A stretch of DNA of 64,000 bases from Fimbriimonadales bacterium (GTDB lineage Bacteria > Armatimonadota > Fimbriimonadia > Fimbriimonadales > GBS-DC): the NCBI GenBank assembly GCA_025998675.1, contig AP024673.1, positions 1,143,221 through 1,207,220 on the forward strand, given 5' to 3'. The translations under genes were made by a program, and so were the position numbers. Below, one piece after another: positions 824 through 29,608 of this stretch; the stretch's first letter is position 1, and the number at the start of each line of letters is the position of its first letter. The notes below the pieces were generated by a model, which worked only from the letters and a program-made list of their open reading frames with translations, did not search any database and was not told the origin of the DNA.

Positions 824-836
824 TACCGTGTGCGCG

Positions 837-882
837 ATTGTACCTGACCCTGTAGCTATCGATAGGTATGGTGCGGTATACT
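837..882. promoter_or_regulatory. Divergent promoters of thiE (-) and vapB (+)
   Basis: The minus strand carries GGTACAAT (TACAAT 837-842) ahead of thiE. The plus strand carries GGTATACT (TATACT 877-882), whose last base is 8 nt before the GTG start of vapB. Both are extended -10 boxes with no convincing -35. The spacing suggests a nearly or fully leaderless vapB transcript. Confidence 0.5.
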
Positions 883-890
883 CTGAATGG

Positions 891-1166
891 GTGAGAACTT
901 TGCCAGAGCTTGAACTTTCAGAAGAGCAAATCGCCGAGCTGGTGAGTCAGCTGCCCCCGGCGGGCAAGCGCCGATTAATGCAGTTGCTCGATCGAATGCT
1001 CAATCAGGAAGCTGAGCCCTATGCGACTGCCAGGATGTCAAGCGAGGAGTTCGCTCGACTCTCCTGCTTTGGCATGTGGGCAGACCACGATGCCATGCTC
1101 GACAGCGTGGCATGGGTGCGCAAGGAGCGTCAACAGTGGCACTCGCGAGTGAGTCCGCGCGATTAA
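891..1166 (+). CDS. vapB: VapB-type antitoxin of a type II toxin-antitoxin pair
   Basis: A 91-aa protein starting at GTG 891 (MRTLPELELSEEQI). It is inferred to bind and neutralise the PIN toxin encoded immediately downstream and to repress the operon. The C-terminal part MWADHDAMLDSVAWVRK resembles the toxin-wrapping tail of VapB-like proteins (MWADRxDMxDSxxWVRxxR). GTG 891 was preferred over longer forms because it lies 8 nt behind GGTATACT, matching the leaderless arrangement seen elsewhere in the window. Its last 31 bases overlap vapC, as expected for a translationally coupled pair. No ribbon-helix-helix or AbrB motif was recognised with certainty. Confidence 0.6.
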   Translation: MRTLPELELSEEQIAELVSQLPPAGKRRLMQLLDRMLNQEAEPYATARMSSEEFARLSCFGMWADHDAMLDSVAWVRKERQQWHSRVSPRD

Positions 1167-1537
1167 TAGACACTGATATTCTGGTCGATGCGCTGCGCGG
1201 CGTCGCGGATGCCGTCAACTTCCTAACGCTCCAGCATGCACAATCGGTGATACAGCTTAGCGTAGTTTCTGCGATGGAGTTAATCGCAGGGTGCCGCAAC
1301 GCGCAGGAACTTACTCGATTACAACAGTTCCTGCAACAAGCCACGATAATACCGATAGATACCGAAGTTTCTTGGAAAGCGCATCAACTGATGAAAGAGT
1401 TTTTCCTCAGTCATGGGCTTCTGATACCTGATGCCCTAATTGCCGCCACCGCCCTTCAGCACGAACTCACACTTTGCACCAGGAATAGTCGCCACTTCCA
1501 GATGATTCCAGAGCTGAAACTTTTGCGCCCGTATTGA
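1136..1537 (+). CDS. vapC: PIN-domain ribonuclease toxin VapC
   Basis: A 133-aa PIN-domain protein, the usual VapC length. It is predicted to cleave RNA (often tRNA in this family) with Mg bound by acidic residues. Visible acidic positions are D12 in the LIDTDILVDALRG strand, E48 in SAMELIAG and D99 in LIPDALIAATAL, followed by TRNSRHF, the typical final loop. The start is GTG 1136, with AAGGAG eight bases upstream and inside the antitoxin gene. It could be a PIN toxin of another named group; the toxin role is inferred from the domain and the pairing. Confidence 0.85.
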   Translation: MALASESARLIDTDILVDALRGVADAVNFLTLQHAQSVIQLSVVSAMELIAGCRNAQELTRLQQFLQQATIIPIDTEVSWKAHQLMKEFFLSHGLLIPDALIAATALQHELTLCTRNSRHFQMIPELKLLRPY

Positions 1538-1610
1538 GTAAGGGAGCAAAGCCCTATGCATATTTTCCTACACGGCTCTGGTTTCCACACATCTACTCGC
1601 GCATGCGTTC

Positions 1611-2828
1611 TCAACAGACGCTTGCGTTGCCCCGCGTGTTTCGCGCCCACCACGCCGCGATACTGACCGCCGCGCCCAGCGTGAACAGCGGCTGCACAGG
1701 CATCAGCGGGCGACTGCCCCCCGCGTACAGCAGAATCGTCAGCAGCGTCCAGCCCACCAGCAGCGCCGTGAGGAACCCGAACGCCCGCTCTGTGCGCCCC
1801 AGCCGCCACAGCCCGTAGCCCGCCAGCGCAAGGAAGAGCCAGTAGACGCCATCCGCAAGGCGCAACGCCGCCGCAACCCCGCGATTGTCGGGGTTCTGCA
1901 GCCCGAACGCCGAGAGCGTCAGCGCAAGCTTGCGCCCCAGCAGCGCAAGCCACTGAATTGGGTTCTCGCGGATCCACTGCAGCGCGAGGCGCATCGCCTG
2001 CTCGTCGCGGGCGACAGGGTCGGTTTCGCTCAGCCACGCGCGCACAGGCTTCGACTCGCCGCCAATCGTCAGCGTGCGCTCCAGAAACAGGGGGTCAAAC
2101 CCGCCGTCGGCGTACTCGTTGTTTGCCCACAGCAGCACATAGCCGCCGCGCCCGATGGGGATGAACGCCCCGTACCGCGCCGAGATGAAGGCGACATACG
2201 GCGCGACGACCAGCAGCGCACACGCCAGCGTGAGCGCAGGCGCGCGCAGTGTGCGTTCCCGCCAGAGCAGCCACCCGCCCGCAAGCGCCGCAAACGGCAG
2301 GAAGTTCGCCCGAGTGAGCGCGAGCAGCCCCAGCAGCGCGCCCGACGCCGCCCAGCCCCACCCGCCCCGCCAGTAAAGCAGCCCGTACACCACCCACACC
2401 GTCAGCGACAGCGCGAGGTTCTCCGTGTAGAGCCAGCCCGTAATCATCAGCAGGTGCGGATGGAGCGCGCCAAGCAGCAGTGCGAGGTTCGCCGCCCGCT
2501 CGCCCGCCAGTCGATGCGTCAGTCGCCACAGCCCCCACAGCGTCAGCAGCCCCAGCAGCGCGTTCAGCACCCGCACGGCGACGGGCGCGTGCCCCACCAG
2601 CGCGTACACGCCCGCCATCAGAAAGATATAGGCAGGCGCAGTCATCAGCCCCTTATCCAGCCGATACTCGCCCGCGCTCGCGAGCCGCTGCGCCATCTGG
2701 TCGTGCAGCACAGCGTCCCCGTGCAGGGGGTCTGCCCGCAGCAGGGGGTCAATCTGGGTCGCCAGCGGCGCGTAAATCAGCCGCAGCGCAATCGCCATCA
2801 GCCAGAGCCAGAACGCGGCGCGGCTCAT
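1611..2828 (-). CDS. Glycosyltransferase family 39 (ArnT/PMT-like) membrane protein
   Basis: A 405-aa integral membrane protein with about ten hydrophobic segments. The first periplasmic loop contains DPLHGDAVLHDQMAQRL, acidic residues typical of dolichyl- or polyprenyl-phosphate sugar transferases (GT39/ArnT superfamily). These enzymes move a sugar from a lipid carrier to a protein or glycolipid on the outer side of the membrane. The start is ATG 2828: TACACT (2837-2842) ends 8 nt upstream and no Shine-Dalgarno is present. It follows the 996-aa protein on the same strand but has its own -10. The acceptor cannot be told from sequence. Confidence 0.7.
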   Translation of the reverse strand: MSRAAFWLWLMAIALRLIYAPLATQIDPLLRADPLHGDAVLHDQMAQRLASAGEYRLDKGLMTAPAYIFLMAGVYALVGHAPVAVRVLNALLGLLTLWGLWRLTHRLAGERAANLALLLGALHPHLLMITGWLYTENLALSLTVWVVYGLLYWRGGWGWAASGALLGLLALTRANFLPFAALAGGWLLWRERTLRAPALTLACALLVVAPYVAFISARYGAFIPIGRGGYVLLWANNEYADGGFDPLFLERTLTIGGESKPVRAWLSETDPVARDEQAMRLALQWIRENPIQWLALLGRKLALTLSAFGLQNPDNRGVAAALRLADGVYWLFLALAGYGLWRLGRTERAFGFLTALLVGWTLLTILLYAGGSRPLMPVQPLFTLGAAVSIAAWWARNTRGNASVC

Positions 2829-2849
2829 CGCGTGCAAGTGTACCTGCGC

Positions 2850-5840
2850 TCAGCGGACGGTCAGCGCCTGTCCGTCGGGATGGAGGTTCCAGCGCACCAG
2901 CAGCGTGTCGCCCTCACGCTCGGCGTTGTGCGGCAGGGGGTTGCCCAGCGTGTCGGTCAGGCTCACGCGCCCCTGCAGTCCGCGCAGGCTGAACCGCGCG
3001 ACGCCGTTCACGCCCTCCGGTCCGCGCACCAGGTACGCCAGTTGCCCGCCTGTCTCATGGCGCAGCAACACCTGCGCGTTGGTGTGCAGCAGTCCCGCGC
3101 GGCGCAGGCGGTCGTCCACCTGCAGCAGCAGGCGCGGCGTGCGCGGGTTCAGCGACGGGTCGCTCTGAATGCTCAGGCGCGGGTCGAGCGCGTCCAGATA
3201 GGTTCCCCGCAGGATGGTCGTGCGATAAGTTCCGTAGGCGGCGACCCACTCGCCGCGTCGGGCGACGAGACGCGCCCGCTCACGGTAGCGCACGCCCGCC
3301 AGCCCGCACACATACTGCATCACGGTGCGCCAGTCGCGCGCGCCGCCAGAAGTGTTGCCAAACGCCTTGCCCGACACGCCCAGCAACACAATCCCGCCGC
3401 GCCCCGCGCGCACGCTCACCCCCACAGGCGCGCCGTCGTACCCATAGAACGGCTCGCCGTCGGCAACTTGATAGCGCGTGAGGACCTCATCGTCGCGCAG
3501 GCGGATGCGCGGCAGGTCGGGGCGCGTCGGCTCTATCACATGCTCGCGGTACGGCGGCTGCGTGCTAAGCTCCAGCCGCCACTCCTGCGCCAGCTCCAGA
3601 CGGAGCGTAATCGTCCGCGCCTGCGGCAGCGGGAATCGGTACACGAAAAAGGCGTCGCGGTCGGCGAAGCGCTCGCCGCTGGCGTTCAGACGGCTGCGAT
3701 GGTTCGTGTGCAAAAACAGCGGCTCCGCCGTCGAGCCTGTGTAGAACGCGGCGAGCGTCCTGCCGTCCGCCTCCAGCCGCGCCTGACGCAGCAGCGCGCC
3801 CCAGCCCGTGTCGGGCAGCGAGTCGCTGAACTTCACGAAGACCGTCTGCCCCGCATACGCCGACAGGTCGACATCCACCCAGCGACGGTTGAAGGTTCCC
3901 TGCGCTGGCTCTGCGCCATGCACGCCCAGCGGGCGCCATGCGTCGGGCGGCGCGGGTTCGGGCGCGATGGTCTCCAGCGCCAGCGACTTGCCCAGCATCT
4001 GCAGCAGCATGTGCATCGGCGTCGGTTGACTCGCCTGCCGCCATGGCATGTCGGGGAGGGCGTCGTAGCCATTCGCGCCGCCGACCACAAACAGCCAGCC
4101 GCCGCCCTGCACCCACTCGGCGAGGGCGCGCAACTCCGCCTCGCGCAGCGGCTTGACCGTTTCGGGCGTCCAGAGCAGCAGGCGCAGACTGCGCGGCAGC
4201 GCGCGTTCGGGCAGCCGTTGCATCGAGTACATCGTGAGGGGGATGCCCGCGTTCACCAGCGCGGCGCCCAGCGTCAGCATATCCTCCACAGGTGCCAGTT
4301 CGGGCGCGCCGCGCATCGCCGTCATCGAGTCGCTGAACAGCATGCCAACGCCCTCCACGCCCGCGTCGATGCTCGCGCTGGGCTGCTGCGCAATCGCCTC
4401 GCAGGCGCGCGTCGCGCTCAGAATCACCGTCGCGTACTCGGCAGGCACAGCCCCGAAAATTCGCTCCGGCCAGGGCAATACCTCGTACCCCGTCGCTTCA
4501 GGGAACATCAACGAAGCAACCAGCGTGTTGAAGTAAAACTGTTGATGCTCCTCCAGCGGGCGGTTGGGCGCGTCCGAAAGCGGGTCGCACAGGAACCACA
4601 GCCGTTTGCCCGTGTCGCGCATCAGCCCCGCCAGCGAAGCGTACTCCAGATAGGCGGTTGCGAACGGCTCGGCTTGATACTCGCCGTCGGCGGGCACGGG
4701 CGTGCGCACAGTGTCCGACCACACCTGCCCGATGACCTCCTCCACAGGCGAGCCGTCGCCCAGAATCAGCGCGTGGTGCGCCAGACAAATCCGCCACAGG
4801 GCGTAGTTGAGCGGGCTATGCACGGCGACCATGCGTCGGGCGTTCGGCTTGCGGGCGCGCGCGGCGTTCAGAATCGCATGCACCGCTTCGGTCATCAGCT
4901 GCGCTTTGAAGCGGTCGGCGCTCCAGCGCGCGGCGTGCGACTCGTCGGGCGGCTGCCACGGGCGTCCCAGCCGCGCCGCGTACAGCTGGTGGAACGCCGC
5001 CTCGTAGCCCGCATCCGCCCAGTATTCGGGCTCTTCGGGGCAAATCGCGTCCGCGCCCGCGTCCAGCATCTGCAGGTACTGGCGAATCAGCGACTCGATG
5101 CGTTCGGGCGTCGGCGTGAGGTAGAAGCTGGTCTCAATCTGCATGGGCGCGCCGTCGCGCGTGCGCTGCACAGCGTCGGGATTCGCCTCCACATACGGCA
5201 GGTAGTCCCGAAAGCCGCCCATCACGAACACGGGATAGCCGCGCGCCTTCCAGTTCGCCAGCCGCGCGGGGTCAAGACTGTGCAGGATCACGGCGTCCGT
5301 CGCCAGCTCCAGTCGCGGGCTATAGTCTGCGCCTGTCTGATAACAGCTGCGGGGCGCAGGCGGGAGCGCAGGACGCAGGGCGTTCGCAGGCGCGCCGAGC
5401 AGTCGCTCCACCCCGTCGCCAATGCCGTCGCGGTCTTCGTCGCGGTCGCTGGCGACCAGTTGCAGTTCGTAGACGCGCGCCTGCGTGCGACGCCGCGCCT
5501 CCACAATTACCTGCAGCGTCTGCACAGGCGGATTGAGGGGCGCGCGCGTCGTCAAATTCAGTTGTTGCACGCCGCCTCGAAACGCCCGTACCAGCAGCCC
5601 GCCTGCCTGCGTGCGCACCCGCGCCTGCCCTTCGCCCGAAACCGTGAGCCGAATCGCGAGGTCCATCCCGCCCAGCACTCGAAAACTGTAGGTCGCCGCG
5701 CCGCTGTTGCCAATCAGGCGCGCGTTGCCCTCCAGCCGCGAGCGCGTCGCCTGCGTCAGCACGCCTGATTCCGTGTCGGGGCGTATGCGCCATTCCATGC
5801 GAGGAACAAGACCGCCTGCCTGTACCTGTCGCCGAATCAT
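2850..5840 (-). CDS. Large protein with a possible glycoside-hydrolase-like core
   Basis: A 996-aa protein with no signal peptide and no membrane segments visible. The N-terminal 140 residues look like a beta-sandwich, followed by SDRDEDRDGIGDGVE, a calcium-binding thrombospondin-type-3-like stretch. The middle (residues about 180-470) has ICPEEPEYWADAGY and other acid-rich strand ends reminiscent of TIM-barrel glycosidases. After it comes a segment (about 540-620) with AEWVQGGGWLFVVGGANG, like the glutamine-amidotransferase-like domain found in GH42-type enzymes. The start at ATG 5840 is chosen because a TACACT -10 (5850-5855) ends 9 nt upstream; ATG 5849 would abut the -10. The substrate is unknown and the enzyme assignment is tentative. 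Confidence 0.5.
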   Translation of the reverse strand: MIRRQVQAGGLVPRMEWRIRPDTESGVLTQATRSRLEGNARLIGNSGAATYSFRVLGGMDLAIRLTVSGEGQARVRTQAGGLLVRAFRGGVQQLNLTTRAPLNPPVQTLQVIVEARRRTQARVYELQLVASDRDEDRDGIGDGVERLLGAPANALRPALPPAPRSCYQTGADYSPRLELATDAVILHSLDPARLANWKARGYPVFVMGGFRDYLPYVEANPDAVQRTRDGAPMQIETSFYLTPTPERIESLIRQYLQMLDAGADAICPEEPEYWADAGYEAAFHQLYAARLGRPWQPPDESHAARWSADRFKAQLMTEAVHAILNAARARKPNARRMVAVHSPLNYALWRICLAHHALILGDGSPVEEVIGQVWSDTVRTPVPADGEYQAEPFATAYLEYASLAGLMRDTGKRLWFLCDPLSDAPNRPLEEHQQFYFNTLVASLMFPEATGYEVLPWPERIFGAVPAEYATVILSATRACEAIAQQPSASIDAGVEGVGMLFSDSMTAMRGAPELAPVEDMLTLGAALVNAGIPLTMYSMQRLPERALPRSLRLLLWTPETVKPLREAELRALAEWVQGGGWLFVVGGANGYDALPDMPWRQASQPTPMHMLLQMLGKSLALETIAPEPAPPDAWRPLGVHGAEPAQGTFNRRWVDVDLSAYAGQTVFVKFSDSLPDTGWGALLRQARLEADGRTLAAFYTGSTAEPLFLHTNHRSRLNASGERFADRDAFFVYRFPLPQARTITLRLELAQEWRLELSTQPPYREHVIEPTRPDLPRIRLRDDEVLTRYQVADGEPFYGYDGAPVGVSVRAGRGGIVLLGVSGKAFGNTSGGARDWRTVMQYVCGLAGVRYRERARLVARRGEWVAAYGTYRTTILRGTYLDALDPRLSIQSDPSLNPRTPRLLLQVDDRLRRAGLLHTNAQVLLRHETGGQLAYLVRGPEGVNGVARFSLRGLQGRVSLTDTLGNPLPHNAEREGDTLLVRWNLHPDGQALTVR

Positions 5841-5968: not shown

Positions 5969-7276
5969 TCAGAGATTCCAGTAAAGCACTTTGCCCGAAC
6001 AGTCGGCGCGGGCGTCGCTGAGGTACACCCCCTTGACATCCACGAACACCCCCTGCGCCAGCGCGCTCATCAGGGTCAGGTAATCGTTGTAGGGGCGCGC
6101 GCGGAACTCGCGATGGGGCACTGCCAGTATCACGGCGTCGTAGTGCCCTCTGCGGGTCTCAAACGGCTCGTCCACAAACGGCGCGGGAATACGCCCCCGA
6201 TCGCCCGGCAGCACCACAGGGTCGCACACCTCCACCGCGCAGCCAAAGCTCAGCAACTCCTCTACCAGCTCCTTGACGCGGGTGTCGCGCACATCGGGCA
6301 CATTCTCTTTGAACGCCGCGCCCAGCACCAGCACCTGCGCGTTGCGCACGGGACGCCCCGCCCGAATCATCAGCTTGACAGTCTCCTTCGCCACATAGAC
6401 GCCCATCAGGTCGTTCGTGCGTCGCCCGGCGAGAATCACCTCAGGATGGAACCCAATCTCCTGCGCTTTGTAGGTCAGGTAGTAGGGGTCTACAGGGATA
6501 CAGTGCCCGCCGACCAGCCCCGGCTCGAAGGGCAGGAAGTTCCACTTGGTGCGCGCCGCCGCCAGCACATCGCGCGTGTTCAGACCCATCTGATGGAACA
6601 GCATCGCCAGCTCGTTCATCAGCGCGATGTTCAGGTCGCGCTGGGTGTTCTCGATGACTTTCGCCGCCTCCGCCGTGCGGATGTTGGGCGCTTTGTGAAC
6701 GCCCGCCTTGACCACCAGCCCGTACAGGTTCGCCAGTATCTCAGTGGTCTCTTCGTCTTGCCCTGCCACGACTTTGACGATGGTCTCCAGCGTATGCTCG
6801 GCGTCGCCGGGGTTGATGCGTTCGGGCGAATAGCCGAGTTTGAAGTCCACACCCGCGCGCATGCCCGACGCCTGCTCCAGCACGGGCGCGCAGTCCTCTT
6901 CCGTGCAGCCGGGGTACACGGTGGATTCGTACACCACGATGGCGCCGCGCTTCATGTGCTGCCCCACAATCTGACTGGCGCTCACCAGATAGCGCAGGTC
7001 GGGGCGTTTCGCCTTGTCGATAGGCGTCGGCACGGTAATGATAATCACATCGGCGTCGCGCATCTGGGCGTGGTCGGTGGTGAACAGCAGGTTTGGATGG
7101 CGCAGGTCGGCTTCAGGCGTCTCGCCGTTGCGGTCGTAGCCTTCCTGCAGCTCTTTGACGCGCGACTCGTTGACATCGAAGCCGACCGTCGGCAGATGTT
7201 TTGCGAACCCGACTGCCAGCGGCAGCCCGACATAGCCCAGCCCGACGATACAGACCTGTTGCGGCGTCTGATTCAT
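5969..7276 (-). CDS. Nucleotide-sugar 6-dehydrogenase (UDP-GlcNAc/UDP-glucose dehydrogenase family)
   Basis: A 435-aa NAD-dependent dehydrogenase that oxidises C6 of a UDP-sugar to the uronic acid in two steps. The Rossmann motif GLGYVGLP is at 12-19, the conserved STVYPGCTEE at 118-127, and the catalytic Cys259 sits in GGHCIPVDPYYL. The HCIPVDPYYL form and length fit the TviB/WbpA-like UDP-N-acetyl-sugar group better than Ugd of E. coli. The true start is ATG 7276, overlapping the upstream epimerase stop as ATGA; longer readings in this frame run through the epimerase gene. The pair probably makes uronic-acid precursors for surface polysaccharide. A strong terminator follows. Confidence 0.85.
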   Translation of the reverse strand: MNQTPQQVCIVGLGYVGLPLAVGFAKHLPTVGFDVNESRVKELQEGYDRNGETPEADLRHPNLLFTTDHAQMRDADVIIITVPTPIDKAKRPDLRYLVSASQIVGQHMKRGAIVVYESTVYPGCTEEDCAPVLEQASGMRAGVDFKLGYSPERINPGDAEHTLETIVKVVAGQDEETTEILANLYGLVVKAGVHKAPNIRTAEAAKVIENTQRDLNIALMNELAMLFHQMGLNTRDVLAAARTKWNFLPFEPGLVGGHCIPVDPYYLTYKAQEIGFHPEVILAGRRTNDLMGVYVAKETVKLMIRAGRPVRNAQVLVLGAAFKENVPDVRDTRVKELVEELLSFGCAVEVCDPVVLPGDRGRIPAPFVDEPFETRRGHYDAVILAVPHREFRARPYNDYLTLMSALAQGVFVDVKGVYLSDARADCSGKVLYWNL

Positions 7277-8244
7277 GGCAAAACCACCTCCTTCGCCCAG
7301 TCGCGATTCTCGAGATACCATGCCACGCTCCTGCGCAAGCCCTCTTCGATGCTTATCTGCGGCTCCCACCCCAGCAATCTGCGCGCTTTGGTGATGTCCG
7401 CCCAGGTCGCCTGCACATCGGCGGGGTGCATCGGCTGCGTCTGCCAGACCGCCTGCTTGCCCAGCAGGCTCTCGATGGTCTCGATAATCCACTTCAGCGA
7501 CACGGGTCGGTCGCCGCCGAGGTTGATGATTTCGTATCCCAACGGCTTGAGCGCGGCGATCGTGCCCCGCGCGATGTCGTCCACATAGGTAAAATCGCGC
7601 TCCTGCAGCCCGTCGCCGAACACCTGAATCGGCTCGCCCTCCGCAATCCAGCGAATAAAGCGGAAGATGCTCATATCGGGGCGCCCCGCGGGACCGTACA
7701 CCGTGAAGTAGCGCAGTACGGTGATGTCCAGCCCGTACAGGTGGTGGTAGGTGTAGCACATGGTCTCCGCGCCTTTTTTGGACGAGGCGTAGGGCGAGAG
7801 CGGGCGGTCGGTGGGCGAGTCCTCGCGGAAGGGACGCTCGTTGTTCGCGTAGAGGCTGGAGGTGGACGCCAGCACATATTTGCGCACCCCGTGCTGACGG
7901 CACAGCTCCAGCAGGTTCAGCGCGCCCGTGGTGTTCGTGGCGATATAGACCCACGGGTTCTGCACGCTCTGGCGCACGCCCGCCCGCGCCGCGAGATTAA
8001 TCACCGCGTCGTAGGGCATGTGCGCCTCGAACACCACACGGGTCGGCTCCCATTCGCTAATGTCCACCTGCTGGAACTGAAAATTCGGTCTGCTCTCCAG
8101 CTGGCGGAGACGCCACTGCTTGAGTCTGGGGTCGTAAGCGTCGTTGAGGTTGTCCACGCCAACCACATCATGTCCCTGCTCCAGAAGCAATTCGGCGGTC
8201 TTCGCGCCGATGAACCCTGCACAGCCGGTGAGTAGGATTCGCAT
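7273..8244 (-). CDS. NAD-dependent epimerase (UDP-glucuronate 4-epimerase-like)
   Basis: A 323-aa short-chain dehydrogenase/reductase of the extended type. NAD-binding TGCAGFIG is at 6-13, an STSS stretch at 127-130, and the catalytic pair Y152/K156 in SPYASSKKGAE. The closest recognisable family is UDP-glucuronate or UDP-galacturonate 4-epimerase, from the DNLNDAYDPRLK and RYFTVYGPAGRPDM signatures. It overlaps the dehydrogenase by 4 bases (ATGA), so the two are translated together. A GGGAG ribosome site lies six bases before ATG 8244. The exact sugar is not decided by sequence. Confidence 0.85.
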   Translation of the reverse strand: MRILLTGCAGFIGAKTAELLLEQGHDVVGVDNLNDAYDPRLKQWRLRQLESRPNFQFQQVDISEWEPTRVVFEAHMPYDAVINLAARAGVRQSVQNPWVYIATNTTGALNLLELCRQHGVRKYVLASTSSLYANNERPFREDSPTDRPLSPYASSKKGAETMCYTYHHLYGLDITVLRYFTVYGPAGRPDMSIFRFIRWIAEGEPIQVFGDGLQERDFTYVDDIARGTIAALKPLGYEIINLGGDRPVSLKWIIETIESLLGKQAVWQTQPMHPADVQATWADITKARRLLGWEPQISIEEGLRRSVAWYLENRDWAKEVVLP

Positions 8245-8268
8245 AAATAGCTCCCTATCTGCAAGAGG

Positions 8269-8300
8269 ATTGTACCTCGATAGGCAGGATTGGGTACAAT
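8269..8300. promoter_or_regulatory. Divergent promoters of the epimerase operon (-) and hisC (+)
   Basis: The minus strand has GAGGTACAAT (TACAAT at 8269-8274), 24 bases before the epimerase start. The plus strand has GGGTACAAT (TACAAT at 8295-8300), six bases before the hisC ATG, so hisC mRNA should begin at or next to its A. The two boxes are 20 bases apart. Confidence 0.6.
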
Positions 8301-8306
8301 TTGAAT

Positions 8307-9401
8307 ATGCCGATTCGCGCCCGCGCCCATGTCTACGAGATGCAACCCTACCGCGCTGGCAAGACGCCCGAGCAGTTGATGCAGTCGCTGGGGCTGAGCG
8401 AGCTGATTAAGCTCTCGTCGAACGAGAACCCGCTGGGGGCGTCGCCGCGCGTGCGCGAGGCGATTCTGAGCGCGCTGGAGAGCATTCACCGCTACCCCGA
8501 CGGCGCATGCACCGCGCTACGCGACGCACTGAGCGACTTTTACCAGCTCCCGCCCGACCACTTCGCCTTCGGCAACGGCTCCGATGAGCTGATCCATCTG
8601 TTCGGTGTGGCGTATCTGGAGCCGGGCGACGCGCTGATGATGGGACATCCGTCGTTCGTGCGTTATGAGGCGTCCGCACAGCTCAATCGGGCGACCCTGC
8701 AGCGCGTCCCGCTCACGCCCGACTTTCGGCTCGACCTCCACGCGATGGCAGCGGCGATTACCGAACACACCAGACTGATTTACCTGGCGAACCCGAACAA
8801 CCCGACGGGCACGATTGTCGCGCGCGCGGAGCTGGAGCAGTTTCTGGCGCGTGTGCCCGACCACGCGCTGGTGGTGCTGGACGAGGCGTATTTCGAGTAC
8901 GCCGATCATCCCGACTACCCCAGCGGCGTGGACTATGTGCGCGCAGGACAGAATGTGGTGGTGTTTCGCACCTTTTCCAAAGCATATGGGCTGGCGGGAC
9001 TGCGCATCGGCTACGCTATCGGCAGACCCGATTTGCTGGACCCCGTCGAGCGCGTGCGCGAGCCGTTTAATGTGAACACGCTGGCGCAGGTCGCCGCCGT
9101 CGCCGCGCTGGGCGACCAAGATCATGTGGCGCGTACCCGTGCGCTCAATCGCGAGGGGCTGCGCATGTTCAGCGAGGCGTGTGAGCGGCTGGGACTGCGC
9201 TCTGTGCCCTCGCAGGCGAACTTCCTGCTGATTGAGATTGGCGCACGATGCGCTCAGGTGCAACAGCGACTGCTCCAGCGCGGCATTCTGGTGCGCACGG
9301 GCGAGGTGTTCGGGCTGCCGACCTATCTGCGCGTGAACACGGGCACAGCGGAGCAGAACGCGCGATTTGTGGAGGCGTTGGCAGATGCGCTCCGCGAGTG
9401 A
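8307..9401 (+). CDS. hisC: Histidinol-phosphate aminotransferase
   Basis: A 364-aa fold-type I PLP enzyme that converts imidazole-acetol phosphate and glutamate to histidinol phosphate. Typical features are the N-terminal KLSSNENPLGASP, the PLP-phosphate and cofactor-contact stretch LANPNNPTGT, VLDEAYFEYAD and the PLP lysine K225 in FRTFSKAYGLAGLRIGYA. The start is ATG 8307: TACAAT ends exactly six bases before it and there is no Shine-Dalgarno, so initiation is probably leaderless. The next gene starts inside its 3' end. It could act on related aromatic amino acids, since HisC-like enzymes overlap in substrate. Confidence 0.9.
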   Translation: MPIRARAHVYEMQPYRAGKTPEQLMQSLGLSELIKLSSNENPLGASPRVREAILSALESIHRYPDGACTALRDALSDFYQLPPDHFAFGNGSDELIHLFGVAYLEPGDALMMGHPSFVRYEASAQLNRATLQRVPLTPDFRLDLHAMAAAITEHTRLIYLANPNNPTGTIVARAELEQFLARVPDHALVVLDEAYFEYADHPDYPSGVDYVRAGQNVVVFRTFSKAYGLAGLRIGYAIGRPDLLDPVERVREPFNVNTLAQVAAVAALGDQDHVARTRALNREGLRMFSEACERLGLRSVPSQANFLLIEIGARCAQVQQRLLQRGILVRTGEVFGLPTYLRVNTGTAEQNARFVEALADALRE

Positions 9402-22066: not shown

Positions 22067-22141
22067 TGGAGCGGGAGACGGGACTCGAACCCGCGACCCT
22101 CTCGTTGGCAACGAGATGCTCTACCACTGAGCTACTCCCGC
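22067..22141 (-). tRNA. tRNA-Gly (GCC), CCA encoded
   Basis: Cloverleaf read on the minus strand: acceptor GCGGGAG/CTCCCGC, D arm GTAGCTCAGTGGTAGAG (typical), anticodon stem CTCGT-TGCCAAC-GAG with GCC, T arm GGGTTCGAGTC. Discriminator T and a genomic CCA follow. It is the last tRNA of a five-gene array, 21 bases before tig. Confidence 0.97.
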
Positions 22142-22165
22142 ACATCGTATTGATTATACCCGATT

Positions 22166-22251
22166 TGGTGGGCGAGGGGAGACTCGAACTCCCACGGGCA
22201 AAGCCCACCAGATCCTAAGTCTGGCGTGTCTACCGATTCCACCACTCGCCC
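22166..22251 (-). tRNA. tRNA-Leu (TAG), CCA encoded
   Basis: Class II tRNA with a long variable arm. Acceptor GGGCGAG/CTCGCCC; anticodon loop CTTAGGA gives TAG; the T arm contains GAGTTCGAGTCTC. Discriminator A plus genomic CCA. Length 86 nt. Confidence 0.97.
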
Positions 22252-22256
22252 GGTGG

Positions 22257-22331
22257 TGGTGCCGAGGGGCGGATTCGAACCGCCGACACCCGGATTTTCA
22301 GTCCAGTGCTCTACCACTGAGCTACCTCGGC
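22257..22331 (-). tRNA. tRNA-Phe (GAA), CCA encoded
   Basis: Acceptor GCCGAGG/CCTCGGC, anticodon loop CTGAAAA giving GAA, T arm GCGGTTCGAATCCGC, discriminator A, genomic CCA. Five bases separate it from tRNA-Leu. Confidence 0.97.
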
Positions 22332-22334
22332 GCA

Positions 22335-22412
22335 TGGCGGGGCTGACGGGACTTGAACCCGCGACCTCTAGCGTGACAGGCTAGCGCTCTGACCTGGCTG
22401 AGCTACAGCCCC
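22335..22412 (-). tRNA. tRNA-Asp (GTC), CCA encoded
   Basis: Acceptor GGGGCTG/CAGCCCC, anticodon stem CTAGC and loop CTGTCAC giving GTC, discriminator G as required for Asp, genomic CCA. Length 78 nt. Confidence 0.97.
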
Positions 22413-22429
22413 GCAAGTCTATCGCTCGC

Positions 22430-22505
22430 TGGTGGGCGAAGCAGGGCTCGAACCTGCGACCTCTTCCTTGTAAGGGAAGCGCTCTCCCAGCTGAGCTATT
22501 CGCCC
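22430..22505 (-). tRNA. tRNA-Val (TAC), CCA encoded
   Basis: Acceptor GGGCGAA/TTCGCCC, anticodon stem CTTCC with loop CTTACAA giving TAC, T arm GCAGGTTCGAGCCCTGC, discriminator A and genomic CCA. It is first in the array, about 20 bases downstream of a consensus promoter. Confidence 0.97.
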
Positions 22506-22718: not shown

Positions 22719-24710
22719 ATGAGAGGCGCGGTATCTACACGGTACCTCATTGCGGGAGCGGTAATCCTGCTGGTTGTTGGCTTGGTGTTTGTGTTGCGCA
22801 GTGCTCGTACGCCAGGACTGCCCGCTGGACTACCCAGCGACGCGCTGGCGGTGGCGAACGAACGCGGACTTTCCCCAGAGGATGTCTATGCAGCCCTTGC
22901 GACCTATGTGCCGGGCGGTAAGCACGACGAATATGTCATGTTCGCCTCAGGCGGGCATAGTGGACAGGTAATTGCGATTGGCATTCCCTCGATGCGCATT
23001 TTGAAAGTTATCCCTGTGTTTGTGCCCGATTCGTGGAGTGGCTACGGGTTTGGCGTGGAAAACACCGCGTTGCATGAAGTCTATGGGCGTGGACCGTATC
23101 CCCCGGCTGACACGCACCATCCCGCAATTAGCGAGACCAACGGAGAGTACGACGGCGAGTTCCTATTTATCGGCGACAAGTTGAACGGGCGCGTGGCTGT
23201 GGTGGATCTGAAGGACTGGGAGACCAAGCAGATTGTGCGCAATCCAGTGATTAACAATAACCATGGCGCGGCGTTTGTGACTCCCAACACCGAGTATGTG
23301 GTTGAGGTTTCCCAGTACGGCGCGCCTCTGGGTCACAAGTACGCGCCCCTCGAACGCTACAAGGACGAGTATCGCGGCTTGCTGACCTTCTGGAAGTTCG
23401 ATCGCAAAAAGGGGCGTATCCTTGTAGAGGAGTCCTTTGCGATCGAGCTGCCTCCCTACTGGCAGGACCTTGCCGACTGCGGCAAAGCCGCCAGCGACGG
23501 CTGGGTCTTCGTGAACTCGTTCAACACGGAGCTGGCGACCGGCGGCGTGGAGAAGGGCAAACCGCCGTTCGAGGCGGGCGTCTCCCAGAACGACATGGAC
23601 TATCTACACATCGTCAACTGGAAGAACGCCGAGCAACTGGTGAAGGCGGGTAAGTTCGTGCGCATCAACGACTTCCGTGTCATTCCTATCAAGGAGGCGG
23701 TCGCGGGCGGCGCGTTGTTCCTGACCCCTGAACCGAAAAGCCCGCACGGCGTGGATGTGAGCCCTGGTGGGCAATATATCGTCGTCGGCGGCAAGCTCGA
23801 TCCCCATGTGACCGTCTACAGCATCGACCGCATCAAACAAGCGATCGAGAAAAAAGACTACGAGAAGACTGACGAGTATGGGATTCCTGTACTGCGATTT
23901 GACGCCGTCAAAGAGGCGCAGGTCGAGCTGGGGCTGGGTCCGTTGCACACCCAGTTCGACGACAAGGGCTATGCCTACACAAGCCTGTTCCTCGACACTG
24001 CTGTGGTTCGCTGGACGCTGGGACCAAATGACAAGTACAAAGCGCCCGAAGAACCGTGGAAGGTGGTCGGTAAGGTGCAGACCCATTACAATATCGGACA
24101 CCTTGCCGTTGTGGAGGGCGATACGACCAAGCCAGTAGGCAAATACCTAGTCGCTCTGAACAAATGGTCGGTGGACCGTTTCCTGAGCACGGGACCGTTG
24201 CTGCCGCAGAACCTGCAGCTGGTGGACATTGGCAATACAGGCGAGACGATGCGCTTGTTGGCAGATATGCCGCTGGGTGTCGGCGAGCCACACTACGCCC
24301 AGATTATTCGCGCCGACCGACTTAAATCGTGGGAGGTCTACCCGGAGGTCGGTTGGGACGCTCATGCGCAGGCGAAATCGGCACACGCCACCGATAAAGG
24401 GCGCATCGAGGTTAAGGGCGACACGGTTCATATCTACACTACTGTGGTGCGCAGCCACTTCAACCCAGAGCATGTGAAGGTGAAAAAAGGGCAGAAGGTG
24501 GTCTGGCACTTGACCAATACCGAGCGCACACGTGACGCCACCCACGGCTTCGCAATTCCCGCGTATGGCATCGGTGCGAGCCTCGAGCCCGGCGAGACCG
24601 TGACCGTGCGGTTCACGGCAGATAAGGAAGGCTCCTTCCCCTTCTATTGCACGGAGTTCTGCTCGGCGCTGCATCTGGAGATGATGGGCTATCTTCAGGT
24701 CGAGCCGTAA
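22719..24710 (+). CDS. nosZ: Nitrous-oxide reductase, Sec-exported (clade II) type
   Basis: A 663-aa multicopper enzyme that reduces N2O to N2 outside the cytoplasmic membrane. It starts with an uncleaved-looking or Sec signal helix (about 8-26) and no twin-arginine motif, as in clade II. The propeller domain supplies His ligands for CuZ, including those in ADTHHP, NNNHGAAF, KSPHGVDV, GPLHTQF and YNIGHLAV. The C-terminal cupredoxin domain binds CuA: C644, C648, H652 and M655 in CTEFCSALHLEM. AGGAGG lies nine bases before ATG 22719. A terminator follows, so it may be made in excess over the downstream maturation genes. Confidence 0.95.
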   Translation: MRGAVSTRYLIAGAVILLVVGLVFVLRSARTPGLPAGLPSDALAVANERGLSPEDVYAALATYVPGGKHDEYVMFASGGHSGQVIAIGIPSMRILKVIPVFVPDSWSGYGFGVENTALHEVYGRGPYPPADTHHPAISETNGEYDGEFLFIGDKLNGRVAVVDLKDWETKQIVRNPVINNNHGAAFVTPNTEYVVEVSQYGAPLGHKYAPLERYKDEYRGLLTFWKFDRKKGRILVEESFAIELPPYWQDLADCGKAASDGWVFVNSFNTELATGGVEKGKPPFEAGVSQNDMDYLHIVNWKNAEQLVKAGKFVRINDFRVIPIKEAVAGGALFLTPEPKSPHGVDVSPGGQYIVVGGKLDPHVTVYSIDRIKQAIEKKDYEKTDEYGIPVLRFDAVKEAQVELGLGPLHTQFDDKGYAYTSLFLDTAVVRWTLGPNDKYKAPEEPWKVVGKVQTHYNIGHLAVVEGDTTKPVGKYLVALNKWSVDRFLSTGPLLPQNLQLVDIGNTGETMRLLADMPLGVGEPHYAQIIRADRLKSWEVYPEVGWDAHAQAKSAHATDKGRIEVKGDTVHIYTTVVRSHFNPEHVKVKKGQKVVWHLTNTERTRDATHGFAIPAYGIGASLEPGETVTVRFTADKEGSFPFYCTEFCSALHLEMMGYLQVEP

Positions 24711-24719
24711 TTACGCTCA

Positions 24720-24762
24720 GGGGCGGGCGCAGGTCGGATGCGCCTGCGCCGCCCCATTTTTT
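24720..24762 (+). terminator. Intrinsic terminator between nosZ and the maturation genes
   Basis: Stem GGGGCGG-GCGCAGG with CCTGCGC-CGCCCC (24720-24733 and 24743-24755), followed by ATTTTTT. It starts 10 bases after the nosZ stop and 61 bases before the next start. Read-through would set a low level of the downstream genes. Confidence 0.85.
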
Positions 24763-24780
24763 GAAGCGAGGTGAACCACG

Positions 24781-25440
24781 ATGAAACAGACGACTCGGTG
24801 TGTAGGAGAGATTTACGCTAAAGTGATGCTGCTGCTGGCGGCAGCGCTTGTGTTCGGTTCTATCTTCCTACCATACTGGAAGATTCATATTATCGCGCCG
24901 CAGTATCCGAAGGGGTTGGATGTCTATGTGCATGTCACGGGCGCACGCGGCGATGTCCAGGAGGTGGACGGCTTGAATCACTATATCGGCATGCGCCCTC
25001 TGGGTGAAGCCGCGCCGTTTGAGCGCAAAATCGCTGTGCCCGGGTTGAGCCTTGTTGCGATCGCGCTGTCTCTGGCGGCGTTTGTGTCGCGTCCACGCTG
25101 GTTCTCATGGTTGCTAATCGCGCCCGTAGTTGCGGTGCTGTTTGTGTTCCCAGCAGACCTCTATTACTGGCTGCGTGAGTTTGGATTGAATCTCGATCCG
25201 AAGGCGCCTCTAAGCGCGATGGTGAAGCCCTTTGTACCGCCCATCTTCGGTCCAGGCAAAATCGCCCAGTTCGGCGTGGAGTCGTGGCCGACATGGGGCT
25301 ACTGGGCATGCCTTGTGGCGAGCATACTGGCAGTCGTTGCGCAGCATCGGCGTGTGCAGTGCGAGCGCCAGTTGCAGAGGCAAGCGCGCCCACATCCAGA
25401 AAGCCCGACTGCCGCCCCGATCTTGACGGTAATTCGCTAA
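24781..25440 (+). CDS. Four-helix membrane protein of the nos cluster (NosB-like position)
   Basis: A 219-aa protein with four hydrophobic helices (about 15-33, 87-105, 110-132 and 176-194) and a first external loop carrying APQYPKGLDVYVHV and LNHYIGM. The same gene order (nosZ then a small polytopic protein then nosD) occurs in clade II nos clusters, where this position is called nosB; similar loops are common next to nosZ/nosL, but no activity is known. GAGGTGA precedes ATG 24781 by six bases. Assignment as NosB is by position and topology, not by clear sequence identity. Confidence 0.6.
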   Translation: MKQTTRCVGEIYAKVMLLLAAALVFGSIFLPYWKIHIIAPQYPKGLDVYVHVTGARGDVQEVDGLNHYIGMRPLGEAAPFERKIAVPGLSLVAIALSLAAFVSRPRWFSWLLIAPVVAVLFVFPADLYYWLREFGLNLDPKAPLSAMVKPFVPPIFGPGKIAQFGVESWPTWGYWACLVASILAVVAQHRRVQCERQLQRQARPHPESPTAAPILTVIR

Positions 25441-25456
25441 CCCGACGGAGGGCAGG

Positions 25457-28400
25457 ATGGGATATTCGTATGGCAGGCGACTTCTCTGCATGAGCGCGCT
25501 GGCGCTGCTTCCGACAGCCGTCTGTGCAAAAGAGTGGACGGTTCATGGAGACGCCCGTGATTTGAGAACTGTTCTCGAACGCGCAGCGCCTGGCGACACG
25601 GTACGGGTGATGGGCGGCGTTTACCGGGGCAACTTTGTGGTCTCCAAACCGCTCACGCTTTTGGGCGAAGGAAACCCGATCCTGGACGGCATGCGCCAGA
25701 AGAGCGTCATCACCCTCAACGCGCCGCGCTGCGTTCTGCGTGGGTTCGTGGTACGGAACAGCGGAGTCATTCTCAACGATCAGGATAGCGCCGTGCGCGT
25801 AGCGGCGCCTGATTGCATCGTGGAGGACAACCGAATCGAGGACGCGCTGTTTGGGGTGCATCTGGACAATGCGCATCGCACGATTGTGCGCTGCAACTTT
25901 ATCCGCTCGCATGACCTGCCCGTAGCGCGGCGCGGCGACCAGATTCGTATCTGGTACAGCCATCACGCTCGTATCGAGCAAAATACCGTTGTGGGGGGGC
26001 GCGACCTGGTGTTCTGGTACTCGCAGGGGATTACCGTGCGCGGCAATCATGTGCGCCGCTCGCGCTACGGCATCCATTTCATGTATTGCAGCGACAGCTT
26101 TGTGGAAGACAACCTGCTCCACGAAAACTCGGTGGGCGTCTACCTGATGTATAGCAAGCGGGTCACGGTGCGCAATAACCGTATTCTGAATAACCGTGGC
26201 GTCTCTGGAATGGGGCTGGGCATCAAAGACATGGACGGCATACGTATCGAGCGCAACCTGATCGCCAACAACCGCACGGGATTGTTCGTGGACAGCGGCG
26301 AAGGTGAGTACCGCGAAAACTGGTTCGTGCGCAACGATGTGGGAGCAAATCTGGTACTGGCGGTAAAAACGAATCGCTTCGTAGGCAATCGGTTCATCGA
26401 GAACTTCGAAGCTGTGCGGCTGGAACGCCCCGACTCGGTGGCAGGCGTCTCGTGGGAAGGCAACTACTGGAGCGACTACAGCGGGTACGACGCGGACGGC
26501 GACGGGTACGGCGATATTCCCTATCGCGCGGTACGGGTGTTCGATTTGCTCACGGCGCATAACAGTGCGCTCCAGATCTTCAACTACAGTCTTTCCGCGC
26601 AGGCGATTGATTTCGGCGCGCGCTTGTTCCCGCTCTTTGCGCCGCGTGCGCTGGTGTTAGATCCCAAGCCACTGACCCAGCATGGGCGCTTGCCGATGGA
26701 TACTCCCACTGCAGAAGGCGCTGGGGGTATCCTGTGGGCGTCGCTGGGCGCGCTCGCTGTCGGCGCCATGTGCGCGGCGCCGCCTGCGCGCCGTGTGCGC
26801 GCCCACATACGCAGGAAATGGACGATGAAACAGACAGGCTCTCCGATTATCCGCATACAGAACCTGACCCGCAAGTTCGGCAAGAATCGGGCGGTGAAAG
26901 GGGTTTCGTTCGTGGTGCGTGAAGGCGAGACGATTGCGCTCTGGGGCGCCAACGGCGCGGGTAAGACGACCATCTTACGCTGCATACTGGGGCTAATCCG
27001 TTTCGAGGGCGTTATCCGTGTGCTGGGCGTCGATGTGCGTCGCGAGGGCGTACGCACGCGCCAGTTCGTGGGCTATGTGCCGCAACTGATTCATCTCCAT
27101 CCCGACTTGAGCGTGCGGGAGACAGTCGCGTTCTATGCGCAGATTCGCGGCGTCGGACTGGAACGCGCTGAGTGCCTGCTGCAGGAGTGGGGGCTACACA
27201 CGCATGTGGAGAAGCCTGTGCACGCGCTTTCGGGCGGCTTGAAGCAGAAACTGGCGCTGGTGATAGCGCTGTTGTCGGACCCGCCGATTTTGCTGCTGGA
27301 CGAGCCAACCGCTCATCTGGACGCCGCTGCCCGCGCCGAGTGGCTCGAACTGCTGCGACGACTCAAAGCCGAGGGTAAAACGCTCATTTTCTGCACGCAC
27401 CAGTTCCCTGAAGTGCGCGCCCTTGCTGACCGCGTGATTGTGCTGGAAAACGGTGAGAAAGCCGCCGAACTCACTGGTGAGCAGTTCACCCGCCTGTGGC
27501 TACGGCGTGGGAGCCTGCGCCTGACCCTGAATCCCGACGACGCGCCGCGCGCCCTGCAAACACTCCGCGACGCGCGCTACGAAGTCGAAGCCATAGACGG
27601 GTTGCTACAGGTGCGACAGGTAGACACCCAGCGTGTAGAGCCTATCCGCCTGCTGCTGGATGCGGGCATCGAGATTCTGGACTACGAGTGGCGCGCGCCG
27701 ATAGAATCGCCCGATTGGAACGCTGTGCCCGACTATGAGCGTATGAGCGGCGCCGCGACTCTGGAGGATTTCTCCCCAGCAACGACAGAACCGAACACGC
27801 CTCATAAAGGAGAGGGCAGCCGTTTCTGGGCGCTGGTGGGGCATCTGGCGCGTAAGGAGATCCGCGACCTGCGCCGCAATCGGTGGGTGCTGCTGCTCAC
27901 AGGGATATTCACAGGGCTATCGGTGCTGTTGACCGCGTTCGGGTTGGGCGGCGTCGGCGAGACGGGTAGCATGGTCGGCTACGGACGCACTTTCGCCAGC
28001 CTGCTGAACCTGTCGCTGCTGATTGTCCCGTTGATGGGGCTGCTGGTCGGCGCGATGAGCATCGCTTCCGAACGCGATCAGCAGACGCTCCACACACTGC
28101 TGGCGCAACCGATAACGCCCGCCGTGATTATCTGGGGCAAGTTCCTTGGCGCGGTGCTGGTGCTGGCGGCGGCGGTGCTGATTGGCTTTGGCAGCAGTGG
28201 ACTGATTATCTACGCCTACGGCGCGGATATTCCCCTGCGGTCGTTCCTTTTGCAGACGGGGCTGACGATGCTGCTGGGCTGGGCGTGCATGGCGTTGGGC
28301 ATGCTGGTCTCCACGCTCACACGCCGCACGGCAACCGCCATCGGGCTGGCGCTCCTGCTATGGCTTACCCTGGCGTTCGTGAGCGATCTGGGGATTATCG

Positions 28401-28657
28401 GTACCGCGATTGCGATGCGCCTGCGCGCCCAGACCCTGCTGTGGCTCACGCTGGCGAACCCACTACAGTCATTCAAAATCGCCGTTGTTCAGGTAATGGA
28501 AGGCAATCTGGAAGCGCTCGGCGCGGCGGGGCTATACGCCCGCGACCTGTTTGAGGAAAAGGTGCTTTATGTGTGCGCAGGCGCGCTGCTGAGCTGGCTC
28601 GCAGCGCCGTTCCTGGTTGCGCTGGGCTACTTCACACGCAAGGGGGCGATAGAATGA
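25457..28657 (+). CDS. nosDFY: NosD-NosF-NosY fusion: copper-site maturation ABC transporter in one chain
   Basis: One uninterrupted 1066-codon frame holds three proteins that are normally separate. Residues 1-25 are a Sec signal (ALLPTAVCA). Residues 26-420 are NosD, a right-handed beta-helix with CASH repeats ending in NYWSDYSGYDADGDGYGD near 336-353. A hydrophobic helix at about 428-446 (ILWASLGALAVGAMCAA) can carry the chain inward. Residues 457-700 are NosF, an ABC ATPase: Walker A GANGAGKTT near 497-505, signature LSGGLKQK at 591-598, Walker B ILLLDEP near 610-616. Residues about 788-1066 are NosY with six membrane helices. NosDFY energises CuZ assembly in NosZ. GGAGG precedes ATG 25457 by five bases. 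ATG 26825 (residue 457) could start a free NosF. The stop overlaps nosL (ATGA). Confidence 0.85.
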   Translation: MGYSYGRRLLCMSALALLPTAVCAKEWTVHGDARDLRTVLERAAPGDTVRVMGGVYRGNFVVSKPLTLLGEGNPILDGMRQKSVITLNAPRCVLRGFVVRNSGVILNDQDSAVRVAAPDCIVEDNRIEDALFGVHLDNAHRTIVRCNFIRSHDLPVARRGDQIRIWYSHHARIEQNTVVGGRDLVFWYSQGITVRGNHVRRSRYGIHFMYCSDSFVEDNLLHENSVGVYLMYSKRVTVRNNRILNNRGVSGMGLGIKDMDGIRIERNLIANNRTGLFVDSGEGEYRENWFVRNDVGANLVLAVKTNRFVGNRFIENFEAVRLERPDSVAGVSWEGNYWSDYSGYDADGDGYGDIPYRAVRVFDLLTAHNSALQIFNYSLSAQAIDFGARLFPLFAPRALVLDPKPLTQHGRLPMDTPTAEGAGGILWASLGALAVGAMCAAPPARRVRAHIRRKWTMKQTGSPIIRIQNLTRKFGKNRAVKGVSFVVREGETIALWGANGAGKTTILRCILGLIRFEGVIRVLGVDVRREGVRTRQFVGYVPQLIHLHPDLSVRETVAFYAQIRGVGLERAECLLQEWGLHTHVEKPVHALSGGLKQKLALVIALLSDPPILLLDEPTAHLDAAARAEWLELLRRLKAEGKTLIFCTHQFPEVRALADRVIVLENGEKAAELTGEQFTRLWLRRGSLRLTLNPDDAPRALQTLRDARYEVEAIDGLLQVRQVDTQRVEPIRLLLDAGIEILDYEWRAPIESPDWNAVPDYERMSGAATLEDFSPATTEPNTPHKGEGSRFWALVGHLARKEIRDLRRNRWVLLLTGIFTGLSVLLTAFGLGGVGETGSMVGYGRTFASLLNLSLLIVPLMGLLVGAMSIASERDQQTLHTLLAQPITPAVIIWGKFLGAVLVLAAAVLIGFGSSGLIIYAYGADIPLRSFLLQTGLTMLLGWACMALGMLVSTLTRRTATAIGLALLLWLTLAFVSDLGIIGTAIAMRLRAQTLLWLTLANPLQSFKIAVVQVMEGNLEALGAAGLYARDLFEEKVLYVCAGALLSWLAAPFLVALGYFTRKGAIE

Positions 28658-29091
28658 AACGCACAATTCTGCTACTGGGAATGCTCATCACGCTGGCAGG
28701 TTGTCAGCAACAGGAACAAACGCCCAGAGTGCGTCTGGGCGAAGACCCATGCGCCAACTGCGGGATGCTCATCAGCGACGCTCGCTTCGCCTGCGTCATT
28801 CAGGATGAGCAGGGCGACTACTATAAGTACGACGACTTCAACTGTATGTTCATCCATGCGAAGTCGGGGCGGATTAAGCCCAAACGCTACCTGGCGCCTA
28901 ACTACGATCAGCCCGAGCAGTGGCTCGACGGCGCGCAGGCGTTTTACGCGCTTACGGAGGAGTTGCAAACGCCGATGGGCAGCCGTGCGGCAACCGTGCC
29001 CACGCGCGAACGCGCGGAAGAACTGCTCAAACAACACGGCGGGGGCAAGGTGCTGACCTTCGAGGAGGCACAGAAGCAGTGGGGTAAGTAA
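28654..29091 (+). CDS. nosL: Copper chaperone lipoprotein NosL
   Basis: A 145-aa lipoprotein: signal peptide with lipobox LAGC (lipidated Cys17), then the NosL metal site CANCGM (33-38), and DDFNCMFIH further on. NosL delivers Cu(I) to NosD/NosZ at the outer face of the membrane. ATG 28654 overlaps the fusion gene stop by ATGA, so translation is coupled. Length and motif order are normal for the family. Confidence 0.92.
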   Translation: MKRTILLLGMLITLAGCQQQEQTPRVRLGEDPCANCGMLISDARFACVIQDEQGDYYKYDDFNCMFIHAKSGRIKPKRYLAPNYDQPEQWLDGAQAFYALTEELQTPMGSRAATVPTRERAEELLKQHGGGKVLTFEEAQKQWGK

Positions 29092-29137: not shown

Positions 29138-29608
29138 TCAGTGCTTCACAAACTCCGGTTTTTCGTCCTTGAGCGATTTGATATAGGCAATCAGCTGGTT
29201 GACCTGCTCCTCCTTAAGGTAGCCGTAGGGCGGCATCGAGGGCTGGTAACCTGCCACCACTTGCTTGTTAGGGTTGATAATCGATTCGCGCAGATACGCT
29301 TCGTCGACAGTTACTGTTGAGCCGTCAGCAAGTTTGACTTCCGAACCATATAGCCCGCGCAGGTCAGGATAATCTTTCCCAACGGCAGGACTCATATGGC
29401 AGGCGTTGCAGCCTGTCTGAATAAAGACCAGTTTGCCCTTCGCCGCTTCGGGGTCTGTGGCGGCGTCAGCTTTCGAATCGGCGGGCTTTGTCTGGGCGGC
29501 GTTCTCGCCTGTACCGCTGGCGGCAGGCGCGCCCTGATTGCCACACGCCGCTAACAACGCGACAGAAGCTATCGTTAGTGCGCTTAGCGCAATCCATCGT
29601 ACTTGCAT
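29138..29608 (-). CDS. Lipoprotein c-type cytochrome, likely electron donor to NosZ
   Basis: A 156-aa exported monohaem cytochrome c. The lipobox LLAAC places the lipid on Cys22, a flexible Ala/Thr/Lys-rich linker follows, the haem site is CNACH (67-71), and the distal ligand is probably M125 in YQPSMPPYGY. The domain resembles the cytochrome c fused to cytochrome oxidase subunit II. It is convergent with nosL and shares an operator-like sequence with nosZ, so a role in feeding electrons to NosZ is a reasonable inference. AAGGAGG lies before ATG 29608. Confidence 0.88.
   Translation of the reverse strand: MQVRWIALSALTIASVALLAACGNQGAPAASGTGENAAQTKPADSKADAATDPEAAKGKLVFIQTGCNACHMSPAVGKDYPDLRGLYGSEVKLADGSTVTVDEAYLRESIINPNKQVVAGYQPSMPPYGYLKEEQVNQLIAYIKSLKDEKPEFVKH

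Follow-up and report, generated by a model that had tools for sequence, protein, structure and literature searches.

Nitrous oxide (N2O) is a greenhouse gas. It is destroyed by N2O reductase, which NosDFY presumably supplies with copper, and this maturation determines whether the reductase becomes active. To our knowledge, a single solved complex, whose components are encoded by separate genes, is the only source for the stoichiometry of NosDFY. The solved structures (PDB 7o0y, 7o12, 7o17 and 7znq) come from Pseudomonas stutzeri. Counted as chains per entries, they hold NosD 16/16, NosF 30/15 and NosY 34/17, that is, D1F2Y2. This agrees with the unequal copy number from which the original prediction started.

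Two kinds of fusion among nos accessory proteins have been described in clade II, namely NosB-NosL and NosB-NosC2 (PMC9697520; PMC11409646). They resemble our locus in joining such proteins, although NosD, NosF and NosY take no part in them. The gene TRD_RS13830 (WP_012643063.1) of Thermomicrobium roseum DSM 5159, annotated only as "nosD", is a NosD-NosF fusion. It lies at 172989-175340 of NC_011961.1, a complete megaplasmid record. As in our locus, NosD, a tail-anchor helix and NosF share one frame, and the order is nosZ-B-D-F-Y-L. However, its NosY is a separate gene.

Here we analyse a window of 64,000 nucleotides from a Fimbriimonadales bacterium, of the phylum Armatimonadota, in which all three proteins form one chain. 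Its components and folds are those of the solved complex. But the latter consists of separate chains, D1F2Y2 per entry, whereas the single chain imposes 1:1:1 unless it is processed. No description of NosD-NosF or NosDFY fusions was found in the open-access literature searched, a body that leaves most subscription papers outside. The NosDFY fusion is a new form of a known system, undescribed in that literature.

The nosDFY gene and its cluster

The fusion gene (25457-28657, +) is a single uninterrupted ORF of 1066 aa that ends in TGA, as read from the ORF, its translation and its domain matches. All the features of the window given below lie on the + strand unless stated otherwise. The NosD part starts with a Sec signal peptide (25457-25528) that carries an AXA-type site, VCA|KEW, at residues 22-27. 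The beta-helix domain follows (25529-26647). Between about residues 36 and 407 it matches TIGR04247 with 390.6 bits (cut-off 300) and Pfam NosD with 145 bits. Next comes a membrane helix (26723-26776; residues 422-440 by hydropathy, 423-440 by AlphaFold), with basic residues after it. A hydrophobic helix had been predicted at about residues 428-446; it is present, but sits slightly N-terminal of that span.

The NosF ABC ATPase domain (26825-27526) covers about residues 465-680 by Pfam and NCBIfam, with the ABC_tran match at 481-619. Its motifs are intact: Walker A (GANGAGKTT, 497-505), signature (LSGGLKQK, 591-598), Walker B (ILLLDEPTAHLD, 611-622) and H-loop (645-649). It matches the solved NosF (7o0y_B) with an E value of 3.9e-36 and 30-31% identity. 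Eukaryotic ABCA chains outscore the solved NosF as PDB matches of this part, so the sequence alone is unspecific for NosF and the gene context decides. A C-terminal extension of NosF (27527-27739) is ordered in the model and alignable among relatives. It is followed by the NosF-NosY linker (27740-27814), with AAAGGAGAGG (27806-27815) at its end. Finally, the six-helix NosY permease domain (27815-28654) matches ABC2_membrane_2 of Pfam at residues 797-1062. Its sole PDB sequence match is 7o0y_D (E 2.8e-25). The prediction of one stop-free frame with a Sec signal, a NosD beta-helix, a complete NosF ATPase and a six-helix NosY was therefore right in each of these parts. The genome is a single contig of 2,987,958 bases, 98.85% complete. 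In it, this ORF is the only NosD above the cut-off and the only NosY match.

The gene belongs to a clade II (Sec) nos cluster (22719-29091) with the order Z-B-D-F-Y-L and nosB directly 3' of nosZ. The nosZ gene (22719-24710) encodes a Sec-dependent, clade II nitrous oxide reductase (TIGR04246, 845 bits, cut-off 625). In the interval between nosZ and nosD, a separate gene (24781-25440) encodes a polytopic membrane protein of 219 aa. It contains LNHYIGM (24973-24993), a NosB motif (PMC9697520), and the second NosB motif, YGHN, reads FGLN. The motif and the position identify it as NosB, and it is homologous to the N-terminal part of the four-part relatives described below. The nosL gene (28654-29091; Pfam NosL 39 bits, LPAM_1) encodes a copper chaperone lipoprotein, and its ATG overlaps the TGA of the fusion (ATGA). 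Neither nosR nor nosX was found between nosZ and nosL.

A small c-type cytochrome gene (29138-29608, -) adjoins nosL on the opposite strand; its product is a possible electron donor to NosZ. Directly upstream of nosZ there is an array of five tRNAs (Gly-Leu-Phe-Asp-Val; 22067-22505, -). Most family relatives tested are similar to the window in the region upstream of the array and in the array itself, and detectable DNA synteny stops by about 22580, just beyond it. The nos genes are patchy in this family, with a NosD match in 5/18 genomes examined, and nos-bearing relatives have nos and the array on different contigs. By this comparison, the nos cluster seems to occupy a variable site flanking tRNAs.

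Fusions among the relatives

A profile scan of genome contigs gave 456 NosD relatives, and the best 80 of 456 were taken up. We searched all frames of the loci, a few of them near-duplicates, and scored a fusion only if both domain HMMs matched one frame. Among these 80 and the survey loci, the domain HMMs give nosZ-B-D-F-Y-L as the gene order across the relatives' loci. NosD and NosF share one frame in 57/90 scored loci, and this fusion occurs in Chloroflexota, Calditrichota, Planctomycetota, Omnitrophota, Armatimonadota and others. The statement that NosD, NosF and NosY are separate in described clusters was thus too strong, T. roseum being among the exceptions. NosB and NosD share a frame in 17/87 scored loci. 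NosF and NosY do so in 5/84, and all five are Fimbriimonadales (best 80 of 456 relatives plus surveys).

No further F-Y fusion appeared among the long frames examined in surveys of Armatimonadota, Chloroflexota, Planctomycetota and Omnitrophota. Rarer F-Y fusions outside Fimbriimonadales may have been missed by the best 80 of 456 relatives and these four phylum surveys, which do not cover Pseudomonadota. In Bacteroidota, 103 genomes have a NosD match, and the longest frame is 644 codons, fewer than the D-F fusion of other groups takes up. A stop-to-stop frame of 1328 codons (G755, L130) was rejected as a fusion: its openness is due to chance, and NosF lies in a different frame. After this case, long stop-to-stop frames were dropped as fusion evidence. 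A Poribacteria locus (513-4106, +) has a NosB-NosD-NosF frame of 1198 codons with two tandem NosB domains. In Candidatus Tectomicrobia KatS3mg131, NosZ (2083-4132) and NosY (7137-8462) are both broken across several frames, possibly by assembly errors.

When the 1066-aa protein was searched across genomes for the same domain order, the fusion was found in four further Fimbriimonadales from separate public records: KatS3mg016 (73% identity to the window protein), HRbin15 (66%), DC 2616664678 (65%) and ARM5 (50%). ARM5, HRbin15 and DC have NosB-NosD-NosF-NosY in a single frame of 1301-1335 codons.

We estimated dN/dS between the window and KatS3mg016; the values are rough, with a high dS. NosD (about 0.13), NosF (about 0.11) and NosY (about 0.14) have low ratios, which indicates that these domains are under purifying selection. 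The two linker regions have about 0.8 and 0.33. In the first linker about 70% of the residues differ, and in the second region about half, with zero stops in all five species. In neutral simulations, the linkers stayed stop-free in five species in 0/2000 runs. This openness despite divergence shows that the junctions are translated.

The tail anchor and the proposed copy number of the single chain

Most unfused NosDs of related clusters end in a hydrophobic helix, with a 19-residue hydropathy of about 1.6-2.6. Basic residues follow this terminal helix wherever the tail was read. The sampled NosDs of Bacteroidota end 12-32 residues past the domain in 17/20 cases, without a terminal helix. Judged by these sequences, the helix of the fusion is the C-terminal anchor that, outside Bacteroidota, most unfused NosDs already carry. 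What had been called a linker helix is, then, not new. The prediction that the fusion is topologically possible holds, as a membrane helix is consistent with a passage from the periplasm to the cytoplasm. With its tail already anchored and its end in the cytoplasm, NosD could be joined to NosF by the mere loss of a stop, which makes the fusion easy.

We modelled the full chain with AlphaFold (67-row alignment; pLDDT 89.1, pTM 0.80). The model contains the helix at 423-440, and its NosY part has six long membrane helices. Its low-confidence segments are 449-452, 458-460 and 773-782, the last one in the NosF-NosY linker. The parts match the solved chains, with Z scores of 42.4 for NosD (7o0y_A, across 376 residues) and 28.1 for NosY (7o12_E); NosF is matched as well. 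The top Foldseek matches of the whole model are ABCG half-transporters (ABCG2, AtABCG25), and the F-Y part resembles a single-chain NBD-TMD. In both, an ATPase precedes a six-helix membrane domain in one dimerising chain. However, ABCG half-transporters are eukaryotic and have no beta-helix domain, so the likeness is one of layout. The kinship with ABCA or ABCG hinted at by the best PDB matches was rejected, as it reflects only layout or ATPase similarity.

The gene probably encodes a complete single-chain NosDFY transporter for copper-site maturation, which would dimerise as a half-transporter to D2F2Y2. We infer this copy number, the function and the absence of processing. Sec would export the NosD part, and the old NosD tail anchor would return the chain to the cytoplasm, where NosF would fold. 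NosY would then insert as six membrane helices. Two chains would pair through NosY and NosF in the manner of half-transporters, giving D2F2Y2 and not the solved D1F2Y2. Perhaps one NosD at a time would engage NosL or NosZ, with the other NosD hanging on its tether. NosF would hydrolyse ATP to drive the handover of copper from NosL to NosD and on to NosZ. The D-F fusion alone sets a 1:1 ratio and occurs widely, so these lineages probably do not need one NosD for every two NosF. A single chain leads to D2F2Y2 unless it is cut, or unless NosF-NosY is added from internal starts.

If the chain were made fused and then cut at its disordered linkers, the ordinary D1F2Y2 would be restored. The poorly conserved, fast-evolving linkers (dN/dS about 0.8 and 0.3) could be cleaved by proteases, and the low-confidence segments of the model are consistent with it. 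In the four-part chains, signal peptidase would also cut before NosD. NosB-NosD fusions keep a signal-peptide-like core ahead of NosD, several of them with an AXA-type site, and in the four-part chains signal peptidase might still release NosB. Nevertheless, we identified no protease site, and the linkers are open-frame and still fused in all five species. We consider such cutting unlikely.

Still less probable are internal translation starts that would add NosF-NosY and keep 1:2:2 from one gene. The window has ATG 26825 (Met457) with AGGA 8 nt upstream. The original prediction noted this ATG after a CAGGAAA stretch and took the place for the remnant of a ribosome site. Here this species could make some NosF-NosY that lacks NosD. 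But at this place KatS3mg016 lacks an ATG, and HRbin15, DC and ARM5 have no comparable SD. Moreover, 17/83 internal start codons in the fusion ORF have an in-range SD of four or more bases. The second proposed ribosome site, AAAGGAGAGG at the NosF/NosY border, occurs just once in the window. However, no start codon in frame was found 4-13 nt past it; the next one is a GTG about 20 nt on. AAAGGAGAGG encodes Lys-Gly-Glu (784-786); HRbin15 shares it, and KatS3mg016 does so in part, in the form of a KGEG/KGER peptide. It may be left over from a former site, without sign of function. As a dispersed repeat it was rejected, with a single copy in the window genome; a broader pattern gave, across eight genomes, only the fusion site of G014 and a single weak match in G001.

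The relatives are for the most part metagenome assemblies, yet an artefact of sequencing or assembly, or a decaying pseudogene, can practically be dismissed, given the same fusion in five genomes from separate records, the selection on the domains, the intact motifs and the lack of another NosD above the cut-off or NosY match in the genome. The nosDFY fusion is real and conserved, and its F-Y joining has a single origin.

History of the fusion and a possible role of NosB

On a tree of concatenated NosZ, B, D, F and Y, the F-Y fusion requires one change, B-D four and D-F twelve. The five Fimbriimonadales form one clade in a 21-row tree (support 100/100), in which ARM5, HRbin15 and DC branch in this order before the window and KatS3mg016. 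A tree constrained to group ARM5, HRbin15 and DC as a clade was rejected (p-AU 9.6e-06). These trees indicate that the NosF-NosY fusion arose once, in Fimbriimonadales. Most simply, the four-part NosB-D-F-Y chain would be ancestral in the clade, and the window lineage would have split NosB off later. Parsimony leaves some room for three separate B-D fusions.

The sequence shows this split. At the nosB/nosD border, the window has TAA, 16 bases including GGAGGGCAGG, and then ATG in another frame. In KatS3mg016, there are two stops and AAGGAGG. The NosB homologues fused in relatives have four hydrophobic segments, so their C-terminus should be cytoplasmic, according to this predicted topology.

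The natural single-chain NosDFY is a ready 1:1:1 construct with which the required number of NosD can be tested. It also carries a warning for annotation: the name "NosD" hides the fused NosF and NosY, and nos clusters may therefore appear incomplete. As for NosB, the stepwise fusion of nosB, nosD, nosF and nosY suggests a tentative reading, which we hold to be possible but rather doubtful. NosB would belong to the copper-maturation transporter as a structural subunit, and the transporter would work as D2F2Y2 (B2D2F2Y2) and serve both subunits of a NosZ dimer at once. Fusion of NosB with NosD has happened repeatedly, which is "Rosetta stone" evidence for NosB acting together with the copper transporter, and not only in electron transport. 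This connection between NosB and the transporter is the most valuable consequence of the fusion finding.
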